Assembly: GCA_900314565.1 (NCBI GenBank)
Contig: OMVU01000064.1
Span: 1 to 37,308, forward strand
Reading direction: 5' to 3'
DNA: 37,308 nt
Source: an uncultured Eubacteriales bacterium
Lineage (GTDB): Bacteria > Bacillota > Clostridia > Lachnospirales > Lachnospiraceae
In this document: positions 375-27,963 of the stretch, one piece after another
Layout of the letters: every line of letters begins with the position of its first letter
Numbering within the stretch: position 1 is the first letter of the stretch
Translations under genes and position numbers: made by a program
The notes under the pieces: model-generated
The model's database searches: none
Told to the model about the DNA's origin: nothing
What the model saw: only the letters and a program-made list of their open reading frames with translations

Positions 375-544
375 GGCAATTATCCCATTCGAGGAGGAGC
401 GGGTCAAGCGATTTCCCTTAAATTCCTTTATACTTTGTAGGTATGACTATGACCTCGTAAATGGTATTAGACATCTGAAATCCGGTATGTTTAAATGTTA
501 GCAGTTCAGAACAATTTCTTTTCATATGATGTGATGGTCGGGCA

Positions 545-581
545 AAGGCGCCCTGAAGATACGATTTCTTCAGGGCGCCTT
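545..581 (+). promoter_or_regulatory. Perfect 14-bp stem-loop in glnN leader, attenuator-like
   Basis: AAGGCGCCCTGAAG (545-558) pairs perfectly with CTTCAGGGCGCCTT (568-581) around a nine-base loop. The 3' flank TTGTCGCATTCTT is only moderately U-rich, so termination efficiency is uncertain. The stem lies 136 bp before the glnN start and inside its probable leader. The ANTAR regulator encoded at 23989-24549 belongs to a family that acts on such leader structures. I did not see the two-hairpin, A1/G4 hexaloop target next to it. Confidence 0.5.
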
Positions 582-716
582 GTCGCATTCTTAAGCAGCT
601 TTTCTGCTGAATAACGTGGATGCCGGAAGCAGACCGTTTGCTGAACAGCGTAAGCATTTGAAGCAGATCATCCGATGAATATCTGAACAAAATCTTATAA
701 TAAAGGAGGAGCAGCC

Positions 717-2825
717 ATGGCTGAGAAAACATCTGTCCCTGAAATGTACGGCAGTCTGGTATTTAACGATAAGGTAATGAAAGACCGCCTTCCGAAAGAT
801 ATTTACCGCGCGGTCCACAAGACGATCCAGAACGGAACGCACCTGGAGCTTGACGTTGCGAATACGGTAGCAGCGGCGATGAAGGAATGGGCAGTGGAGC
901 AGGGCGCAACGCATTTTACGCACTGGTTCCAGCCGATGACCGGCCTCACGGCGGAAAAACACGACGGTTTTATTTCTCCCGAACCGGACGGAACGATCCT
1001 CATGGAGTTCTCCGGGAAGGAGCTCGTAAAGGGCGAGCCGGATGCCTCCAGTTTCCCGTCAGGCGGACTCCGCGCGACCTTCGAGGCCCGCGGCTATACC
1101 GCATGGGACCCGTCCTCGCCGGCTTTTATCAAGGATGGCTCTCTGTATATTCCGACGGCGTTCATTTCCTACGGCGGCGAGGCGCTGGATAAGAAGACGC
1201 CGCTTCTTCGCTCCATGGAAGCGCTGAGCAAACAGGCCGTCAAAGTCCTTCATCTGATCGGCGAGAAGGATGTTACACGCGTCACGACGACGATCGGCTC
1301 CGAGCAGGAATATTTCCTCGTCGACAAGGACATGTATAAGAAGAGAAAAGACCTTCTTCTCTGCGGAAGAACGCTTCTGGGAGCGCCTGCACCGAAAGGA
1401 CAGGAGATGGAGGATCACTACTTCGGTGTCCTGAAACCGAAGGTCTCCGCGTTCATGCATGATCTGGATGAGGAGCTCTGGAAGCTCGGCATTCCGGCCA
1501 AGACAAAACACAATGAGGTCGCGCCCGCGCAGCACGAGCTGGCACCGGTCTTTGAGACAGCGAACGTCGCGGTAGACCACAACCAGCTGACCATGGAGAT
1601 AATGAAAAAGGTGGCAGACAAGCATGGTTTCGCCTGCCTGCTCCATGAGAAGCCCTTCGAGGGAATTAACGGATCCGGCAAGCATAACAACTGGTCGATC
1701 CAGACGGATACGGGCGTTAACCTCCTGAACCCCGGAAAGCATCCCGGTGACAACCTCACTTTCCTGACATTCCTGGTCGCAGTCATTGCGGCGGTCGACG
1801 AGTACGCAGAGATTCTCCGTGTTTCCGTCGCTACAGCCGGAAATGATCACAGACTGGGTGGAAATGAAGCTCCGCCTGCAATTATTTCCATTTTCCTCGG
1901 AGAGGAGCTCTCCCTTGTGCTGGATGCGCTGGAGAAAGGCGTGGCCTTCGAAGGACACGGGAAGACGCAGATGGGCACGGGAGCAGCCGTCCTGCCGCAC
2001 ATCACAAGGGATACGACGGACAGGAACAGAACGTCCCCGTTCGCATTTACCGGCAACAAATTCGAATTCCGTATGCCCGGATCGTCCCTGTCTGTTGCGA
2101 ACGCGAACATCGTTCTGAACACGGCGGTCGCAGATGTGCTGGAGACGATCAGTGACGCACTGCAGGAAGTTCCGGAGCATCACAGAAAGGACGCTCTCAT
2201 GGAGATCCTGAAGAAGATGCTGACGGATCACAAGAGGATCCTGTTCAACGGAAACGGCTACACCGACGAGTGGGTAGAGGAGGCCGCAAAGAGAGGGCTT
2301 GCGAACCTGCGGTCGCTTCCGGAGGCTATGCCGAGCTGGATCTCGGAGAAGAGCCTTTCGCTCTTCACCAGACACGGGATCCTGACACGCGACGAGATGT
2401 TCTCGAGATATGAGATCCTTCTTGAGAACTACGCCAAGACGATCCACATCGAGTCGCTCACGCTGCAGGAGATGACCCGCAAAGATTTCACGGGAGCGCT
2501 CATTTCCTACATGGACGATGTCGCAAGAGAGGGAAATGCAAAGCGTGCGCTTCTTCCGGGCGCAGCCTGCAAAGCAGAGTCAAAGGTACTGGCCGCACTC
2601 GATGAGGATGCAGGAAAGATCGTGGAGCATCTTGAGAAACTGAAGGAGGATACGGAGAAGGCGGAGCAGATTGCGGAGATCCAGGCGCAGGCTTCCTTCT
2701 ACCAGGAGGTCGTCCTCGGGGATATGAGCGAGCTTCGCGCATGCATTGATCATGCGGAGGCCCTGATCCCGGACAGCTATCTGCCGTATCCGACCTATGG
2801 GGAGGTCCTCTTCTCGCTGAGATGA
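717..2825 (+). CDS. glnN: Glutamine synthetase type III
   Basis: This cytoplasmic enzyme joins ammonia to glutamate using ATP, and the product feeds GltBD and CarAB. The 702 residues match the usual GSIII length of about 700-730. The N-terminal part carries the family stretch FPSGGLRATFEARGYTAWDP (about residues 113-132). The catalytic barrel shows IGSEQEYFLVD, NEVAPAQHE, GINGSGKHNNWS and GNDHRLGGNEAPP, followed by FEFRMPGSS and the GSIII signature SSLSVANANIVLNT. Metal-ligand glutamates and the flap glutamate are therefore present, unlike in the glnA-like gene at 24655-25923. The start is fixed by AAAGGAGG eight bases before ATG 717. It is probably the working glutamine synthetase of this region. 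The next gene, gltB, is separated by repeats and a terminator at 3153-3197. Confidence 0.97.
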   Translation: MAEKTSVPEMYGSLVFNDKVMKDRLPKDIYRAVHKTIQNGTHLELDVANTVAAAMKEWAVEQGATHFTHWFQPMTGLTAEKHDGFISPEPDGTILMEFSGKELVKGEPDASSFPSGGLRATFEARGYTAWDPSSPAFIKDGSLYIPTAFISYGGEALDKKTPLLRSMEALSKQAVKVLHLIGEKDVTRVTTTIGSEQEYFLVDKDMYKKRKDLLLCGRTLLGAPAPKGQEMEDHYFGVLKPKVSAFMHDLDEELWKLGIPAKTKHNEVAPAQHELAPVFETANVAVDHNQLTMEIMKKVADKHGFACLLHEKPFEGINGSGKHNNWSIQTDTGVNLLNPGKHPGDNLTFLTFLVAVIAAVDEYAEILRVSVATAGNDHRLGGNEAPPAIISIFLGEELSLVLDALEKGVAFEGHGKTQMGTGAAVLPHITRDTTDRNRTSPFAFTGNKFEFRMPGSSLSVANANIVLNTAVADVLETISDALQEVPEHHRKDALMEILKKMLTDHKRILFNGNGYTDEWVEEAAKRGLANLRSLPEAMPSWISEKSLSLFTRHGILTRDEMFSRYEILLENYAKTIHIESLTLQEMTRKDFTGALISYMDDVAREGNAKRALLPGAACKAESKVLAALDEDAGKIVEHLEKLKEDTEKAEQIAEIQAQASFYQEVVLGDMSELRACIDHAEALIPDSYLPYPTYGEVLFSLR

Positions 2826-2936: not shown

Positions 2937-2960
2937 GAGAGTCAGGATCTTTTGGAATTC

Positions 2961-3116
2961 AAGAACGCCTCGGCGTTCTTGCCGCGACGTGCGCGGCGCG
3001 TAAGCGCCTTCCACTGCGCACGTCTGCGATCCGCCGGAGGCTTTATTCTTCATCGTTTCACTTTGCGCGCGTATCTCATGTCTGAAGACACGAGTATTGC
3101 GCGATGAAGAATAAAA
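2961..3116 (+). repeat. Family B repeat, copy B2 (head plus tail)
   Basis: The head starts with the core AAGAACGCCTCGGCGTTCTT, an 8-bp stem with a CTCG tetraloop, and runs to CCGCCGGAGG at about 3040. The tail, 3044-3116, is itself a long imperfect palindrome: TTTATTCTTCATCG pairs with CGATGAAGAATAAA, and inside it TATCTCATGTC pairs with GACACGAGTATT. The same head and tail occur at 27685-27963 but with another element inserted between them. Confidence 0.8.
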
Positions 3117-20671: not shown

Positions 20672-20690
20672 TACAAAAGCATCTCCTCAT

Positions 20691-20735
20691 CAAGAACGCC
20701 TCGGCGTTCTTGCCACGCCGCGCAAGTCTTCGTTG
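20691..20735 (+). repeat. Family B repeat, copy B4 (core only)
   Basis: CAAGAACGCCTCGGCGTTCT is followed by TGCCACGCCGCGCAAG. The core hairpin is perfect and lies only 20 bp before the AAA-ATPase start codon on the other strand. The rest of the 20736-20958 gap is AT-rich with no gene I can support. Confidence 0.75.
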
Positions 20736-20958
20736 GCGCTATTCCGGTTCCCTGTCTGTGGCTGATATATTTCATTTTACACTGTTCATCAGTTTTTTCC
20801 AACAGCCATTGGATGATGTCGGTCCTGCTGTATTACATTTTATGCGGACTTTTGATAAAGATAAGGATAAAATTCGTTGGAAGAATCCTTCTCCGTGGAT
20901 GCACGATGACGGGCGCAGAGATACCTCTGAGGTCTGACTGAGCCTTCGATTTATGTAT

Positions 20959-20987
20959 TTTACATATTCAGTTCCGGAGGGTACAAT
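20959..20987 (+). promoter_or_regulatory. Sigma-70 type promoter for amtB
   Basis: The -35 is TTTACA (20959-20964) and the -10 is TACAAT (20982-20987), with a 17-bp spacer. Each hexamer matches the consensus at five of six positions. The start point should be near 20994, only about 13 bases before the terminator stem at 21007. Confidence 0.65.
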
Positions 20988-21006
20988 ACGAATTGAAATT
21001 TCAAGC

Positions 21007-21040
21007 AAGGGCGCTGACAAATTCGGTCAGTGCCCTTTTT
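21007..21040 (+). terminator. Intrinsic terminator in the amtB leader (candidate attenuator)
   Basis: AAGGGCGCTGAC (21007-21018) pairs with GTCAGTGCCCTT (21026-21037) with one G-T pair and a seven-base loop, followed by a run of five Ts. It lies between the promoter and amtB, 143 bp before the start codon. Right after it, TTTTTGCATC (21036-21045) and GATGCAAAAA (21060-21069) form a second perfect inverted repeat that includes the terminator T-run. Confidence 0.75.
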
Positions 21041-21182
21041 GCATCATTTATGGGATCCCGATGCAAAAATAAAATACGCAGCCTGTTACAAAAACAAACC
21101 GTAAAAACAAACTGCAAAACACGCAATGCATTACGTGCGGTGCTTTTGCAAAGAACGGCTGCGCTATGGAGGAGGGATTATT

Positions 21183-22949
21183 ATGACAAGTGAGATTTAT
21201 GAAGCTCTGCACGCCGAGATCTACGGCGTCTGGTTCCTGATCGGAGCCGCGCTGGTATTCTGGATGCAGGCCGGATTCGCGATGGTCGAGACCGGCTTTG
21301 CACGGGCGAAGAACGCCGGCAACATTCTTATGAAAAACCTGATGGATTTCTGCATCGGAACAGTGATGTTCGTTCTGGTCGGATTTGGACTGATGTTCGG
21401 TGAGAATGCCCTGGGAGGCTTTCTTGGAATTCCGTCTTTACAGATATTTTCCGATTATGCGAATTTCGACTGGTCGACCTTCGTCTTTAACCTGGTCTTC
21501 TGCGCGACGACAGCGACGATCGTCTCCGGTGCGATGGCGGAGCGGACAAAATTCTTATCCTACTGTGTCTACTCCGCAGTCATCTCCGCGGTGATCTATC
21601 CGATCGAAGCGCACTGGACCTGGGGCGGAGGCTGGCTGGCAGGTATCGGCTTCCATGATTTTGCGGGTTCGAACTGCATCCACATGGTCGGCGGAATTTG
21701 CGCGCTGATCGGCGCAGCGATCCTGGGGCCGAGAATCGGAAAGTTCTCCAAAGACAAGGCCGGAAAGATCGTCAAGGTCAATGCATTTCCGGGTCACAAC
21801 ATTCCGCTTGGCGCGCTCGGTGTTTTCATTTTATGGCTCGGCTGGTACGGCTTCAACGGCGCGGCGGCGACAAGTATTCCGCAACTCGGAAGCATTTTCC
21901 TGACGACGACGGTCGCACCTTCCGTCGCGACAGTTGTCTGCATGATCTTTACCTGGATCCGTTACGGCAAGCCCGACGTCTCCATGTGTCTGAACGCTTC
22001 CCTGGCAGGTCTGGTCGCGATCACAGCGCCCTGTGATTCGGTCGACTGCTTCGGTTCGATCGTGATCGGACTGGTCGCCGGACTTTTGGTCGTATTCGGC
22101 GTGTGGTTCCTGGACAATGTCCTCCGGGTCGACGATCCGGTCGGTGCGGTCGCGGTCCACTGTATAAACGGGATATGGGGAACGATCGCGGTCGGTCTCT
22201 TCTCGACGAACAGCGTGCCGGGATATGCCATTGCCGACGCGCAGGGAAATGAAATGCTCGGTCTCTTCTACGGCGGCGGTTTCAAGCTTCTCGGCATACA
22301 GCTCCTGGGAATGTTCTGTACCGCAGCATTTACGGCAGTCACCGCATTCCTGGCGATCAGAGCAATCTTCGGCCTGCGCGCCTCTGCGGAGGAGGAGATT
22401 ACCGGTCTCGACAGTACAGAGCACGGTCTGACAAGCGCTTATGCCGGATTCTCCATCATGCATATCACAGGCAACGCGATGGAGGAAAATGAAAACACGG
22501 ATCTCGGCGTAGACGCCTATGAGGAGGCGTCGGAGGCCATGAAGGACGCTTCCGTCAAGGTCGTCGGGGAGCCGATGCCGGCGAAGATCGATACGGGAAT
22601 GCATAAGGTCGTCATCATCGCAAGGCTGGCAAGATATGACAAGCTCACCAAGGCGCTGAACGATCTGGGCGTGACAGGAATGACCGCTACACAGGTCATG
22701 GGCTGTGGAATTCAGAAGGGCGGCGGCGAGAGATACAGGGGCGTTGAGATCGACGCGACCCTGATCCCGAAGGTCAAGGTAGAGGTCGTCGTCAGCAAGA
22801 TCCCGGTCCGCTCTGTCATAGAGGCAGTCAAGAAAGCCCTGTACACCGGGCATATCGGAGACGGCAAGATCTTTGTATACGGCGTGGAGAAGGTCGTCAA
22901 GGTCAGGACAGGAGAGGAAGACCTCAGGGCGCTGCAGGATGTGGAATGA
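21183..22949 (+). CDS. amtB: Ammonium channel fused to a C-terminal PII (GlnK) domain
   Basis: Residues 1 to about 415 form an Amt/Mep channel that passes ammonium across the membrane. It shows WMQAGFAMVETGFARAKNAG near the N-terminus and both members of the pore twin histidine, HMVGG (near residue 167) and HCINGIWGT. A linker of about 55 residues leads to a PII domain (about 473-588, from MHKVVIIARLARYDKLTKAL) with QKGGGERYRG, LIPKVKVEVVV, GDGKIFVYGVE and RTGEED. In free PII proteins the T-loop plugs the channel when 2-oxoglutarate is low; here the plug is tethered. The position of the uridylylated Tyr51 is Ile (VEIDAT), so uridylylation is unlikely. ATG 21183 follows GGAGGAGGG. An in-frame ATG at 21126 has no ribosome site. 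Confidence 0.95.
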   Translation: MTSEIYEALHAEIYGVWFLIGAALVFWMQAGFAMVETGFARAKNAGNILMKNLMDFCIGTVMFVLVGFGLMFGENALGGFLGIPSLQIFSDYANFDWSTFVFNLVFCATTATIVSGAMAERTKFLSYCVYSAVISAVIYPIEAHWTWGGGWLAGIGFHDFAGSNCIHMVGGICALIGAAILGPRIGKFSKDKAGKIVKVNAFPGHNIPLGALGVFILWLGWYGFNGAAATSIPQLGSIFLTTTVAPSVATVVCMIFTWIRYGKPDVSMCLNASLAGLVAITAPCDSVDCFGSIVIGLVAGLLVVFGVWFLDNVLRVDDPVGAVAVHCINGIWGTIAVGLFSTNSVPGYAIADAQGNEMLGLFYGGGFKLLGIQLLGMFCTAAFTAVTAFLAIRAIFGLRASAEEEITGLDSTEHGLTSAYAGFSIMHITGNAMEENENTDLGVDAYEEASEAMKDASVKVVGEPMPAKIDTGMHKVVIIARLARYDKLTKALNDLGVTGMTATQVMGCGIQKGGGERYRGVEIDATLIPKVKVEVVVSKIPVRSVIEAVKKALYTGHIGDGKIFVYGVEKVVKVRTGEEDLRALQDVE

Positions 22950-22998: not shown

Positions 22999-23901
22999 TC
23001 AATGCCCGGGGAAGGGAACACCCGCCGCGGAGCAGATGCTCCTGACAAAGTTCTCCGCGGCATGTGTCAGATGATGCGTGCGGTCCCACACGAGAATGTA
23101 GGATGCGGTGACTGCGGGATCGACAAGTTTTTTGATCGTCACCTCGGGGTCCCCTGAGAAATGGCTGTCGGACGCCGGATAAATCGCGATTCCGACGCCC
23201 TGCCGGGCCAGCTCGTAGGCATTCAGCATATGCGCTACCCGGCAGCAGACATGAAGCTCGATATTTTTATCCGGGAACCAGTTCTTTATTTCCATAAGTC
23301 TGGACTCGCGGGAGGGAATGATCAGATCCCGGTCGGCGAGGTCGGAGACGGAAACGCTATCCCCCTCCGCTTTCGCAAGAGGGTCGGAGGACGGGATGAG
23401 CGCAGTCCAGGGCTCGGTGTAGACCGGTACGGAAAAAAGACCCTCCGCATTGTGGGGTTCTGTGATAACGCCGAGCTCTGAGAGACCGTTCGTTACCCAG
23501 TAGATCACGTCATCCGTGCTGCCGTTGCGCAGCGAATAGTCTACATGCGGATGTTCCGTCTTATAGTCTGCGATCCATTTTGCGAGAAGTCTCGGAGCGT
23601 GCCCTTCCACGGAAGCGATATAGAGCGTTCCCTGAAGGCCTCTGGACATCTCCGCGATATGTTCCCTGGATTTTTTGACAAGGTCCATGATCCGGAGGGC
23701 GTACTCTAAGAAAGCCTCCCCCTCCGGCGTTATGTGAAGGCCGTGCGGCGAGCGATCGAAGAGCACAGCGCCCAGTTCATCCTCCAGATCTTTTATTTGA
23801 CGGCTCAGAGGAGGCTGCGCGATCATCAGCTGCTGCGCAGCCTTCGTGAAGCTTAAGTTTTCGGCGACAGCGATAAAGTAATGAATGTGTCGTATTTCCA
23901 T
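22999..23901 (-). CDS. LysR-family transcription regulator
   Basis: This is a DNA-binding regulator of 300 residues. The winged helix-turn-helix is at residues 1-60 (MEIRHIHYFIAVAENLSFTK, then AAQQLMIAQPPLSRQIKDLE). A periplasmic-binding-protein-like effector domain runs from about residue 90 to the end. The effector cannot be told from sequence. Members near nitrogen genes include GltC-type activators, but there is no direct evidence here. The chosen start is ATG 23901 after GGAAGGAAAC. An upstream in-frame start would add 13 residues encoded by a duplicated copy of the preceding gene's tail. It is the last gene of the leftward series and has its own terminator. Confidence 0.93.
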   Translation of the reverse strand: MEIRHIHYFIAVAENLSFTKAAQQLMIAQPPLSRQIKDLEDELGAVLFDRSPHGLHITPEGEAFLEYALRIMDLVKKSREHIAEMSRGLQGTLYIASVEGHAPRLLAKWIADYKTEHPHVDYSLRNGSTDDVIYWVTNGLSELGVITEPHNAEGLFSVPVYTEPWTALIPSSDPLAKAEGDSVSVSDLADRDLIIPSRESRLMEIKNWFPDKNIELHVCCRVAHMLNAYELARQGVGIAIYPASDSHFSGDPEVTIKKLVDPAVTASYILVWDRTHHLTHAAENFVRSICSAAGVPFPGH

Positions 23902-23911
23902 GGTCAGTTTC

Positions 23912-24015
23912 CTTCCGGCCTCATCAGGGATCCGGGTCAAAAAGAAGAATTTACGTTTGCTGTTTTGATTATAAGCCTGTCGGCCTCATCAGGAATCTCT
24001 TTCAAAGAGAAGAAT
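23912..24015 (-). repeat. Duplicated 3' end of the ANTAR gene
   Basis: Two diverged copies of about 39 bp lie at 23912-23950 and 23976-24015. Read on the minus strand, each has ATTCTTCT, then CCTGATGAGGCCG. The second contains the last codons and TGA of the ANTAR gene. The first is non-coding and supplies the ribosome-binding region of the LysR gene. Confidence 0.6.
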
Positions 24016-24549
24016 CATCTGCGCTGTTTCCAGCATGGTCCTGCCGGTATCCATGCTCGTCTTCTGGATGAACCGGTAAGCCTCGGGCTCCGTCATGTGA
24101 TTACGGTCCATCAGAAGGAGCTTTGCTGCATTTACGGTCTTTTTGTCCTCCTCCGCGCGCTGCCTTTTCTTCTGGCGCAGCTTGTTCTTCAGCTTCTGAT
24201 CAGCCGCCTCATCCAGCATACGAACTGTATTGATGAGGTCATGTGTTCTGATCGGGACGGTCAGCGAGACGACGTCGGATTCGCGTAAAGTACCGACATT
24301 GAACTCGGTGTCCAGAAGCAGAAGACTGAAGCATTCCGGCAGGCAGTCAATCAGCTCCCGGTAGTACATATCGGGCAGCTGAACGCAGGAAATAAGGACT
24401 CCGTTCTGCCTCAGATCGATTTCCTGCAGCGCTTCGGAGGCAGTCGTAACGATCGTTATATCGGAAAAACCCCGGGAAGACAGCGCGTCCCTGATCTTAT
24501 GGCTGAATTTACTGCGGCCGACAGGAAATGCAATAATAATACTGCTCAA
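23989..24549 (-). CDS. ANTAR-domain RNA-binding response regulator (NasT/GlnR type)
   Basis: This is a cytoplasmic antiterminator-type regulator of 186 residues. The N-terminal part (about 1-110) resembles a receiver domain, but no clear acceptor aspartate with the usual surrounding motif is visible. A basic coiled stretch (LKNKLRQKKRQRAEEDKKTV) leads into the C-terminal ANTAR domain (about 130-180, AAKLLLMDRNHMTEPEAYRF and onward). ANTAR domains bind paired hairpins in mRNA leaders and prevent termination. Start choice: AGGAGGG lies six bases before TTG 24549 but directly abuts the alternative TTG 24555, so 24549 is preferred. It follows the glnA-like gene, as in the known clostridial glnA-glnR pair, and that partner is the best guess for its signal input. 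Confidence 0.92.
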   Translation of the reverse strand: MSSIIIAFPVGRSKFSHKIRDALSSRGFSDITIVTTASEALQEIDLRQNGVLISCVQLPDMYYRELIDCLPECFSLLLLDTEFNVGTLRESDVVSLTVPIRTHDLINTVRMLDEAADQKLKNKLRQKKRQRAEEDKKTVNAAKLLLMDRNHMTEPEAYRFIQKTSMDTGRTMLETAQMILLFERDS

Positions 24550-24609
24550 GGTCAACCCTCCTGTCTTTTACGTAAAGTTGGCGGTTTTTCAGAGACAAGT
24601 TCCTATTTG

Positions 24610-24654: not shown

Positions 24655-25923
24655 TTAAATTCGTCTCAGATATTCCTTGAGCTCCCAGTCCGTGACTTCT
24701 CTGGAGTAGCGCTCCCACTCTTTTTTCTTTTCCTTCACATAAACATCTGCATAGGATTCCCCGCAGACATTCCGCAGAAAAGCATCGTTCTCCAGGCTGT
24801 TCAGGGCTTCGAGGAGCGTTGCAGGAAGAGCCTTCCGATCTGTATCCTCCACAGGCGGCAGCGCGCCTTTTCTGATTCCGTCGAGGCCCGCTCCGATCGC
24901 GCAGGCAAGCGTCAGATACGGATTCGCGGCTCCGTCCGGCAGGGTCCACTGAATGCACGGGCAGCCGTCTTCATTCAGGGCAAGCCGAAGCGGGGCGTAG
25001 TGGTCATGTCTTGACCAGTAGAGCCTGGAAGGTGCCTGCGTTCCGCCGAGAAGTCTCTTGTAGGAGTTGACGAGCGGATTGGAAAATGCCGAGATCGCGG
25101 GCTGATGCTCAAGAATTCCCGCAATAAAATGAAGAGCAGCCTGCTCATCCTGCCGGAACAGATTTCTTCCGTCCTTATAGACAGAGATAGATAAGCGCAT
25201 CGCGGATCCGGGAAGATCTGTCCTTGGCTTCGGCATGAAGGTCGCGTGCAGGCCGTAGCGCTCGGCGACCGTGCGGATCGTTGTCCGGAAAGTCATGATC
25301 TGATCGGCGAGACGGACGCCGTCCATCTGCTTGAAGATGACGGAGTGCTGGCCCGGCGCGAGTTCATGGCGCGAGGATTCGATCTCAAAGCCCATTTCTT
25401 CGAGGGAAAGGATCAGCTCACGCCTTGCATTTTCCCCCTTGTCGAGCGGGGAGACGTCCAGATAGCCGGCCATCTCGCCGGTGTGAGTCGTCACATGACC
25501 GTTCTCATCCTTTGCGAACAGGAAGAATTCACAGTCGGGATCAATGTCAAAGGTGTAGCCGTCATTTTCGGCATCACGGACGATCTTTCGGAGGATCTTC
25601 CTCGGGTTCTCCGCGATTTCGTTTCCTTCAGCATCGGTGATGTCGCAGAGAAAACGTGCGACTTTGCCGTGCTGCGGACGCCACGGAAGGATGGCGAACG
25701 TCCTGATATCCGGCCTGAAATAGATGCGGTCGCAGCCGATTTCGTGCATGCCGTGGAGATGGAAACTGTCTACCGAGTATTTCCCGTTCAGAGCCTTTTC
25801 AATCTGCCCTGACGTGATGGAAATGTTCTTCAGTTCTCCGAGAAGGTCCACGAATTGCAGCTTGATGAATTTGATATCATTTTCTTCAATCTTGTCGATA
25901 ATCTGATCTTTATTCTGTATCAT
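24655..25923 (-). CDS. Glutamine synthetase I-like protein, probably inactive
   Basis: The 422 residues align along their length with GSI-alpha enzymes such as Bacillus GlnA (for example GKVARFLCDI, LEEMGFEIESSRHELAPGQH, GLHATFMPKP, NSYKRLL, AANPYLTLACAIGAGLDGI). By eye, using E. coli numbering, many catalytic residues are replaced: E129 to D (residue 130), E220 to S (194), H269 to R (243), the flap E327 to Q (296), R339 to H (308), E357 to Q (325) and R359 to T (327). DGSS is DSFH. E131, H211 and E212 remain. Catalysis is therefore unlikely, while the fold and possibly ligand binding persist. It lies just before the ANTAR gene, so a sensor role is plausible, with GlnN (717-2825) as the real enzyme. 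GGAG lies eight bases before ATG. Confidence 0.88.
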   Translation of the reverse strand: MIQNKDQIIDKIEENDIKFIKLQFVDLLGELKNISITSGQIEKALNGKYSVDSFHLHGMHEIGCDRIYFRPDIRTFAILPWRPQHGKVARFLCDITDAEGNEIAENPRKILRKIVRDAENDGYTFDIDPDCEFFLFAKDENGHVTTHTGEMAGYLDVSPLDKGENARRELILSLEEMGFEIESSRHELAPGQHSVIFKQMDGVRLADQIMTFRTTIRTVAERYGLHATFMPKPRTDLPGSAMRLSISVYKDGRNLFRQDEQAALHFIAGILEHQPAISAFSNPLVNSYKRLLGGTQAPSRLYWSRHDHYAPLRLALNEDGCPCIQWTLPDGAANPYLTLACAIGAGLDGIRKGALPPVEDTDRKALPATLLEALNSLENDAFLRNVCGESYADVYVKEKKKEWERYSREVTDWELKEYLRRI

Positions 25924-26058: not shown

Positions 26059-27663
26059 TTATTCTTCCTGCTTCTTCCTGATAGCAGCCTCGATGAGTCC
26101 CCGGAACAGCGGATGCGCCCTGTTCGGTCTCGACTTGAACTCCGGATGTGCCTGTGTGGCCACAAAGAACGGGTGGTCCCGAAGCTCGACCATCTCGACG
26201 ATCCTGTCGTCGGGAGAGATGCCGGAGAGGGTCATCCCTGCATTTTCCAGTTCGATGCGGTAGTCGTTGTTGACCTCATAGCGGTGTCTGTGACGTTCGG
26301 AGATGTTCCGTTCTCCGTAAAGTCGGAAAGCGTTCGTATTCTCCCGCAGGATGCAGGGATAAGCTCCGAGACGCATGGTCCCGCCGAGGTCGGTGACGTC
26401 CTTCTGCTCGGGCATGAGGTCGATGACCGGATGCGCGGTTGAATAATCGAATTCGGTGCTGTTCGCATCCTGAAAATGAAGGACATTCCGCGCAAAGTCC
26501 ACGATCGCCATCTGCATTCCGAGGCAGATTCCGAGATAAGGGACCTTATGCTCGCGGGCGTATGTCGCGGCGTAAATGATGCCCTCGATGCCTCTGCCGC
26601 CGAATCCGCCTGGGACGATGATGGCATCAGCCTGACCAAGGAGCCCGTCTGCGGTCTGTTCATTCAGATCCTCCGATTCGATCCACCTGATCGTGACTTC
26701 CGCGTGGTTGGCGATGCCGCCGTGCTTCAGGGCTTCTACGACGGAGAGATATGCATCGTGCAGGGCGGTGTATTTTCCGACGAGCGCAACGGTGACGGAG
26801 GTCTTCGGATTCCGGAGGGCGCTGACCATATTTTCCCATTCACGAAGGTCAGGAGCCGGAGAGTCGAGATGCAGGCAGTCGAGGACCCGGTCAGCCAGAT
26901 GCTCTTCCTCCATGACGAGGGGCACTTCATACAGGTATTCCACATCCCTGTTCTCCAGGACATTTTCGGGAGGAACATTGCAGAAGAGGGCAATTTTATC
27001 CCGAACGCCCGAGGGGACGGGATATTCTGAGCGGCAGACGAGGATATCGGGCTGGATACCGAGCTGCTGGAGCTGTTTGACGCTCATCTGGGTCGGTTTT
27101 GTCTTGAGTTCGCCGGACGCTCTGAGATAGGGAATCAGGGTCACGTGAATGATGATGACGTTCGATTTCCCTTTTTCCCACTGGAACTGACGGATTGCCT
27201 CCAGAAACGGCTGACTCTCGATATCGCCTACCGTTCCGCCGACCTCGATGATGGAAATGATATCCTTATCGGGGTCGTCGGAGCTGAAAAAGCGCGATTT
27301 GATTTCATTTGTGATGTGCGGGATCACCTGAACGGTACCGCCGCCGTAATCGCCGTGCCGCTCCTTGTTGAGGACAGCCCAGTAGACTTTTCCGGACGTC
27401 ACGTTCGCGTGGAAGTCCAGGCTTTCATCGATGAACCGCTCGTAATGTCCGAGGTCGAGGTCGGTCTCTGTTCCGTCGTCCGTCACAAAGACTTCGCCGT
27501 GCTGGATCGGGTTCATGGTCCCGGGGTCGATGTTGATATACGGATCGAATTTCTGCATGGTCACCCGGAAGCCCCTCGCTTTGAGAAGTCTTCCGAGGGA
27601 AGCTGCGGTGATGCCTTTGCCGAGGCCGGAGACAACGCCGCCGGTAACGAAAACATACTTCAT
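26059..27663 (-). CDS. pyrG: CTP synthase
   Basis: PyrG converts UTP to CTP with ATP and glutamine nitrogen in the cytoplasm. The 534 residues are typical. The N-terminal synthetase domain starts [19 protein letters not shown] (P-loop) and includes [15 protein letters not shown] and the CTP/UTP-binding [11 protein letters not shown]. The C-terminal class I amidotransferase domain has VPGGFGGRG, the nucleophile cysteine in [10 protein letters not shown] and the histidine in [11 protein letters not shown]. The start is ATG 27663, preceded by GAGGAGG. Longer in-frame starts run into repeat B5. Its leader of about 355 bases contains an intrinsic terminator (27959-28013) and the composite repeat. 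The glnA-like gene follows after 135 bp. Confidence 0.97.
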
Positions 27664-27684
27664 GTTGTGCCTCCTCGTTATTTC

Positions 27685-27963
27685 AGGAACGCCTCGGCGT
27701 TCTTGCCGCGACGTGCGCGGCGCGTAAGCGCCTTCCACTGCGCACGGCTGCGATCCGCCGGAGGCTTTTATTATGAGAACCGCTTCGCGAACCTCATAAT
27801 CATAATGCGGGCGATTTCATCGCCCTTTTATCGTCAGTTCCTTGCGGAACTTCCGATAAGATCTATTCTTCATCGCGAGATTGTACTCACAATGAAGGCA
27901 AGTTTCACTTTGCGCGCGTATCTCATGTCTAAAGACACGAGTATTGCGCGATGAAGAATAAAA
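27685..27963 (+). repeat. Family B repeat (B5) with a nested family C copy, in the pyrG leader
   Basis: The head (27685-27771) matches B2 from AGGAACGCCTCGGCGTTCTT to CCGCCGGAGGCTTTTA. Then comes a complete family C copy (about 27774-27862, ATGAGAACCGCTTCGCGAAC to CGATAAG), and then the B2 tail (TATTCTTCATCG to CGATGAAGAATAAA), which has a further insertion of about 30 bp. B2 lacks both insertions. Family C forms internal hairpins GGGCGAT/ATCGCCC and GTTCC/GGAAC. Confidence 0.8.

Follow-up and report, generated by a model that had tools for sequence, protein, structure and literature searches.

What does a glutamine synthetase do for a cell once its active site is no longer that of an enzyme? 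The question is raised by a gene on a 37.3 kb contig of an uncultured Lachnospiraceae bacterium; the whole of this contig, referred to below as the window, was analysed here. The gene occupies positions 24655 to 25923 on the minus strand and encodes, from ATG to stop, a protein of 422 amino acids with similarity to type I glutamine synthetases (GSI), which we call the pseudo-GS. The assembly comprises 4.22 Mb in 191 contigs (completeness 100, contamination 3.84), and a 187-residue piece of the pseudo-GS is found with 100% identity in the MAG 'uncultured Lachnospiraceae bacterium RUG13128', in which 'RUG' presumably stands for rumen. On the same strand, pyrG, coding for CTP synthase (26059 to 27738), lies 135 bases upstream of the pseudo-GS gene; downstream follow a gene for an ANTAR antiterminator-like protein (23989 to 24555) and, at the end of the gene row, one for a LysR-family regulator (22999 to 23940). 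An ammonium transporter fused to a PII domain (amt-PII) is encoded on the plus strand at 21126 to 22949. These genes are part of a nitrogen and glutamine island that extends on this one contig from 717 to 29492 and includes glnN, gltB, gltD, carA, carB, amt-PII, the pseudo-GS gene, pyrG and proA, with a PPDK_N-domain gene located between gltD and carA. A palindromic repeat (around GAACGCC..GGCGTTCTTG) was seen by eye between the nitrogen genes, at about 195-260, 2960-3045 and 20688-20740. An Rfam search of the window at E<=1 returned one chance miRNA match and otherwise nothing.

A preliminary description of the sequence had stated that the fold is conserved end to end, and this is borne out by several results. 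Pfam recognises both GSI domains (Gln-synt_C, 294 bits; Gln-synt_N, 58 bits), residues 4-419, or nearly so, align in phmmer searches with GS chains of the Gram-positive type (best five 344-356 bits), and the AlphaFold2 model has a mean pLDDT of 85.4 and a pTM of 0.88, with values below 50 for residues 286-296, the flap. To locate the active site, positions were mapped on the sequence of 4lnf (B. subtilis GlnA), with E. coli numbering and residue roles that we take to apply to the pseudo-GS. 4lnf falls into the same sequence group as 4lnn, which is given as B. subtilis GS (PMC11957540). Nine of the 15 mapped positions are changed: the seven substitutions already named (E129D, E220S, H269R, E327Q, R339H, E357Q and R359T) are real, and S53H and N264P were added to them, while D50, E131, E212, G265, R321 and R344 are kept. 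The earlier wording that most catalytic residues are lost is therefore fair but tight, at 7 of 13 core positions or 9 of 15 with S53 and N264. Among the six metal ligands E129, E131, E212, E220, H269 and E357, four are altered, so that glutamine synthesis by the pseudo-GS is very unlikely; judged from its residues, the protein can probably no longer work as an enzyme. The window protein was the one scored against the NCBIfam GlnA equivalog (type I glutamate-ammonia ligase) and, with 320.6 bits, stays under the cut-off of 429.15.

Glutamine is presumably made in this genome by a type III enzyme. The intact GlnN noted previously at a distance of 22 kb is indeed a type III GS (717 to 2825, plus strand), whose catalytic blocks SEQEYF, HNEVAP, NGSGKH, GNDHRLG and FEFR are kept and align with 3o6x. 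A family search found three GS genes in the genome, the pseudo-GS gene and two for type III enzymes, the second of which lies on another contig. As type III GS is encoded in 148 of 150 genomes of the family, synthesis by GSI is probably dispensable.

If catalysis is gone, is the gene still maintained? Compared with its 91% identical sister in the genome G190, the pseudo-GS gene has a dN/dS of 0.084, which argues that it is not decaying; the values for its neighbours are 0.076 (pyrG), 0.082 (LysR), 0.044 (amt-PII) and 0.118 (ANTAR gene). Together with four further proteins, the pseudo-GS and its G190 sister form a clade of six full-length members (G000, G190, G178, G010, G081 and G032; SH-aLRT 100), in each of which the reading frame is open and 4-7 of the 13 core positions are changed. 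The low dN/dS and the changes in all six members argue against a chance loss of residues. The replacements themselves vary between sisters: E327 is represented by Q, Q, F, F, H and H, and the G190 protein carries R344Q and keeps E357 and R359. Invariant columns within the clade make up 4 of the 15 active-site positions, as compared to 41% of all columns. Where intact relatives are conserved, the six proteins retain 6-9 of the 13 core columns of the active site, as compared to 80-88% of the remaining columns. As claimed earlier, the loss is heaviest in the active site, although some conserved non-catalytic columns have also been lost.

The loss of catalytic residues is not confined to this clade. 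A GS1 gene (E<=1e-68) is present in 129 of the 150 family genomes; 17 of the other 21 gave no match and four a distant one. Among 128 genomes, all 13 core positions are kept in 52, one or two are changed in 48 and three or more in 28, and at least one metal ligand is lost in 20. Many of these changes are mild as far as the residues tell: E327D by itself accounts for 20 of the 128 genomes, and such copies may remain active enzymes. E131, G265 and R321, which hold the amino-acid backbone in GS, are kept in all 128. In a tree of 161 rows calculated after removal of the active-site columns, six changes, five of them forced by starred branches, are needed to account for 69 intact rows and 36 with heavy change; this count ignores rows with one or two changes and gives no direction of change, and the tree, which includes rows of the same genus and second copies, was built by a quick method with SH-aLRT as its sole support measure. 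The second copies G053b, G059b, G075b and G112b are in the tree and outside the 128, the partial GS of G183 and G137 were excluded from both, and G054b has no GS above the threshold. Related gut bacteria seem, on this sequence comparison, to have lost GS catalysis several times and in the same way. With at least three core changes in 28 of 128 genomes, a share of the glnA-like genes in this family may not make glutamine.

Could such genes nevertheless be redundant copies on their way to being lost, or enzymes with a different reaction? A decaying gene beside type III GS would fit the presence of the latter in nearly all family genomes, the absence of GS1 from 21 of the 150 and the differences in active-site residues between close sisters such as the G190 protein. 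Against this stand a dN/dS like that of the adjoining pyrG, the end-to-end conservation of the six clade members and the retention of the ANTAR partner. The preliminary description had proposed that intact orthologues in relatives would mark this copy as simply decaying; intact copies do occur, in the 52 genomes mentioned above, and decay is contradicted by the selection on the gene. We rejected decay on the strength of the dN/dS and give it very little credence. The idea of a ligase with a changed substrate, which would join an amine other than ammonium to the gamma-carboxyl group of glutamate, draws on the GSI-fold glutamate-methylamine ligase 9qur, which is among the PDB matches, and on the retention of E131, G265 and R321 throughout the family. 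However, the window protein has other residues in place of the metal ligands E129, E220, H269 and E357 and of R339 and R359, and the differing replacements in its sisters do not look like a new conserved site, which makes such an activity very improbable. With high confidence, we instead favour a non-enzymatic role under selection, as suggested before; the low dN/dS, the open frames of the clade, the concentration of the loss in catalytic columns and the repeated loss across the family with the ANTAR gene kept all point in this direction.

What this role might be is indicated by the neighbouring gene. The ANTAR gene starts 99 bases after the pseudo-GS gene, and its product of 188 amino acids is predicted by AlphaFold2 (pLDDT 95) to consist of a receiver fold, a long helix and the ANTAR helices. 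A Foldseek search with this model returned the EutV-RNA structure 6ww6 first (E 7e-10), then Rv1626 and EutV, and then AmiR of the AmiC-AmiR complex 1qo0. Judged by the receiver landmarks that we take to apply here, the acidic pocket and the phospho-acceptor position, the receiver fold lacks the phospho-acceptor Asp. In the corresponding column of 157 aligned partners, the eight commonest letters (G, N, S, A, C, P, V and M) account for 154, with no Asp among them, and the protein should for this reason not be the target of a kinase. A kinase-driven receiver was rejected because both the acidic pocket and the phospho-acceptor Asp are missing. Without a phospho-acceptor, the ANTAR protein would most likely be switched by a protein partner, for which the pseudo-GS would be the obvious candidate.

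The two genes also occur together. A two-domain ANTAR partner is encoded in 128 of the 129 GS-bearing genomes and in none of the other 21; in the sole exception, G137, the GS gene is cut off by the end of its contig. In G126 the partner is split across two contigs, and in G057 partner and GS lie on different contigs. The ANTAR gene adjoins the GS gene in 75 of the 80 best named loci, one of the five exceptions being located at a contig end, and three GS copies have room beside them and no neighbouring ANTAR gene (G053 at C16, G112b and G075b). The order pyrG-GS-ANTAR-LysR is common to the window, G190 and G178, whereas pyrG follows the ANTAR gene in G081 and lies about 6 kb off in G032. In solvent clostridia, the nitR gene is found beside a GS gene, a system in whose literature Stutz 2007 and Fierro-Monti 1992 are cited. 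By its gene arrangement, the pair of pseudo-GS and ANTAR protein is this known glnA-nitR layout. According to PMC6316151, NitR acts by antitermination on GS/GOGAT genes, and in C. thermocellum the ANTAR gene Clo1313_2030 is listed next to the annotated GS Clo1313_2031 (PMC4676874). As the pseudo-GS is under selection though probably without enzymatic activity, and shares one gene row with a regulator, we consider it likely that it acts as a sensor for the ANTAR antiterminator, the product of the next gene. The preliminary description could not name a role, as the ANTAR partner and the RNA elements in the leaders of nearby genes had been missed.

Two such elements were found in the window. The amt-PII leader (20997 to 21044, plus strand) contains the hairpin AGC[AAGGGC]GCT (loop 21007-21012), which overlaps the 5' arm of an intrinsic terminator, and promoter-like hexamers, a consensus match only, precede it (TTTACA-17-TACAAT, 20959 to 20987, plus strand). 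In the glnN leader (534 to 589, plus strand), the hairpin GGGC[AAAGGC]GCCC (loop 544-549) overlaps a strong stem-loop, behind which the U-run is weak (TTGTCGCATT). Both leaders therefore combine a hexaloop with A at position 1 and G at position 4 with an overlapping terminator, which are features of EutV-type targets, and we presume amt-PII and glnN to be targets. A second hairpin close by, as in the EutV pair, is absent: the amt-PII leader has one hexaloop, and the glnN leader has no other within 60 bases, the next ones lying 83 and 244 bases upstream. A scan of the window for dual hairpins according to the EutV rule gave five pairs, none of them in these two leaders. The possibility that an EutV dimer contacts one hairpin at a time has been raised in the structure paper (PMC8934654). 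In front of the window's own pyrG-GS-ANTAR row, no hairpin-terminator leader of this kind was found. At 325-375 on the minus strand, a further hexaloop hairpin-terminator, CAGC[AAGGGC]GCTG, points off the left end of the contig, so that another target gene may lie beyond it; this element is not among the covariance-model matches at E<=1 described below.

Are these hairpins more than chance? Hairpin-terminators with an A..G.. hexaloop are as a class no commoner than those with A..T.. (651 each), but two loops stand out among them, AAAGGC with 49 and AAGGGC with 32 occurrences, as compared to 21 for the top loop in nine control classes. The 99 matches to AARGGY precede GS1 (45), amt-PII (14), glnN (9), pyrG (6), gltB (4), carA (1) and other genes (20), some of which start like PurF, AsnB or PurA by eye; this tally is not an unbiased regulon, since most of the sequences searched came from the surroundings of GS1, amt-PII and glnN, with 18 loci coming from the pattern GCAARGGCGC, and at least one match (L174, index 1864) falls within the amt-PII gene. 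On 73 leaders, hairpin and terminator both covary (0.616 and 0.547, against maxima of 0.282 and 0.234 for slid positions; none of 500 shuffles each), although two of the five count measures, the pairs with changes on both sides, are not clearly above the shuffles (391 and 80 of 500). The alignment, A1, holds 73 of 77 chosen leaders, four long ones having been removed by hand, and because leaders were chosen with a stem of at least three pairs and a closing C-G, the covariation tests lean towards structure. A permutation test was run free of any stem filter: a stem of at least four pairs is present at 84 of 291 AARGGY sites, as compared to 17.4 sites on average, and never more than 32, in 1000 permutations of the left flank. 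Two tandem hairpin-terminators were seen by eye before one amt-PII gene, in L206 (the amt-PII leader of G151).

In a search of the bacterium's own genome, the covariance model R1 was applied, with a rough calibration, to 150 of the 715 candidates from a first look. At E<=1 it gave five matches, before amt-PII, purF, a LysR-like gene, glnN and a putrescine aminotransferase gene, with modest E-values of 0.005 to 0.17, the amt-PII leader being the best (E 0.0046) and the glnN leader reaching E 0.14. The purF and LysR-like matches are both on contig 81, where the LysR-like gene (assigned by eye; L345:3354-4307, minus strand) lies beside purF. Among nine other genomes with degenerate GS, matches precede glnN (G032, G190, G178, G080), amt-PII (G190, G108), gltB (G108), pyrG (G139, G023), carA (G080) and genes with asnB-like and purA-like starts (by eye); G010 has one match (E 0.59) to which no gene was assigned, and the matches of G081 at E<=1 do not include its amt-PII leader. 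The pattern GCAARGGCGC alone is not specific, as it occurs 18 times in the window's genome and its reversed control 28 times.

Taken together, we propose the following mechanism. The pseudo-GS would keep the GSI fold without synthesis, glutamine being made by GlnN. Under nitrogen shortage, when 2-oxoglutarate is high, the pseudo-GS might change its shape or assembly at the subunit interface, and the changed protein could release or activate the ANTAR protein through direct contact. In the leaders of its targets (amt-PII, glnN and genes that use glutamine, for example purF), the latter would then stabilise the hexaloop hairpin, and the overlapping terminator could in consequence not form, resulting in antitermination.

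The choice of 2-oxoglutarate as the putative signal rests on a comparison with M. mazei GlnA1, in which this ligand is bound between protomers via F24, R26, S38, R87, R172, R173 and S189 (PMC11957540). The equivalent residues of the pseudo-GS are F19, K21, N33, R82, R167, R168 and S184, as read from ungapped stretches of the alignments with 8s59_O and 8tfb_A; 8tfb is the M. mazei protein (PMC11957540), and 8s59 was taken as such from its matching coordinates. Five of the seven residues are identical, the other two being R26K and S38N. Across 128 genomes, each of the seven columns has the same letter in 124-128 (N at S38), and in the 28 degenerate genomes six are invariant, while the seventh varies between R (26 genomes) and K (two). 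The catalytic columns of the same 28 genomes, in contrast, have eroded: 4 genomes keep E327, 6 keep R339 and 11 keep D50. The site columns are, however, equally invariant in intact copies and partly shared by B. subtilis GS, which has Y for F24 and T for R87, and for these reasons they may be kept for structure. One might tentatively regard 2-oxoglutarate, perhaps with an amino acid, as the leading ligand candidate.

Two other readings of the pairing need to be weighed against this. The pseudo-GS could report glutamine to the ANTAR protein, in the manner of the feedback-inhibited B. subtilis GS, for which binding to the regulators TnrA and GlnR provides a precedent, and in which glutamine is held for these regulators via R62 and E304 (PMC9249791). 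E131, G265 and R321, kept in every one of the 128 genomes, would suit an amino-acid ligand. In the pseudo-GS, R62 and E304 are E and Q (clade letters EDDDTE and QQFFHH), and R62 is kept in only two of the 28 degenerate genomes; a glutamine-locked state of the B. subtilis kind is therefore unlikely, and we regard glutamine sensing as possible, if rather doubtful. Alternatively, the protein might be a passive, ligand-free scaffold or chaperone of the ANTAR protein, the signal coming from the PII domain of the amt fusion or from the LysR protein, whose genes adjoin the operon. That the equivalents of the 2-oxoglutarate site stay invariant while the catalytic site erodes speaks against a purely passive role, and we consider it unlikely.

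GS folds without synthetase function have been met elsewhere: 2j9i, a weak phmmer match of the pseudo-GS, is presumably lengsin, a GS-like protein of the animal lens without a synthetase role, which differs from the pseudo-GS in not being paired with an RNA-binding regulator. The AmiC and NasS sensors, for their part, are binding proteins of another fold, not dead biosynthetic enzymes. What AmiC-AmiR and NasS-NasT share with the pair studied here is a sensor encoded with an ANTAR protein, and AmiR likewise has a pseudo-receiver (PMC3369936, PMC3795266). The glnA-nitR system of solvent clostridia also has an ANTAR regulator of ammonium-assimilation genes encoded beside GS, but the GS there is taken as an enzyme, whereas the window GS has lost its catalytic residues in the presence of type III GS; in addition, covariation was used here to define the leader element and the candidate regulon. 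B. subtilis GS resembles the pseudo-GS as a nitrogen sensor for a regulator, but is active, acts on DNA-binding proteins and signals glutamine through R62 and E304, which the pseudo-GS has both lost (PMC9249791). The 2-oxoglutarate-activated GS of M. mazei, with which the five site residues are shared, is active and the description consulted mentions no ANTAR partner, whereas the pseudo-GS is catalytically degenerate and has one (PMC11957540). As far as the sequences allow such a classification, the window system is a pseudoenzyme variant of the known theme of NitR-type ANTAR antiterminators. The family has the look of a natural experiment on an enzyme with a second, regulatory function: in several lineages the chemistry would be lost and the regulation retained. 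Since the two genes, their candidate RNA targets and a probable site for the signal are now named in gut bacteria, nitrogen sensing by NitR-type ANTAR proteins becomes testable.

What becomes of the regulator where the GS gene is missing altogether? Among 397 genomes searched, six from five genera (G019, G382, G063, G309, G323 and G268; L341:3625-5382 on the minus strand, L354, L355, L356, L357 and L358) encode the C-terminus of CTP synthase and an ANTAR domain in one frame. A GS-like gene is absent from all six, in searches with the query that matches 133 of the 150 family genomes. For G019 the whole protein of 584 amino acids was scored, and both the CTP synthase and the ANTAR part are above the cut-offs; the G063 fusion runs off its contig end, and a separate G063 contig has a PyrG end without ANTAR domain. 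Since pyrG in the window lies directly upstream of the pseudo-GS gene, we infer that the fusion may stem from the loss of the intervening GS and receiver part. Among the matches listed in searches of open-licence PMC papers, which do not imply absence from print, there was neither a GS pseudoenzyme with an ANTAR protein nor a CTP synthase-ANTAR protein. With some hesitation, the findings could be combined into the view that dead GS became a dedicated 2-oxoglutarate sensor for antitermination, that this arose several times in one family after type III GS had taken over synthesis, and that the ANTAR domain moved onto CTP synthase in GS-less relatives. In G019, the hairpin-terminator is kept before glnN (E 4.5e-5), and there is a weak match before the fusion itself (E 0.23). 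From these gene contents, the RNA-binding output seems to persist where the GS and its receiver have been lost. In G121, which has no GS-like gene, an open frame of 74 codons with an ANTAR domain only is located at about 3935-4134 of L343 (minus strand).
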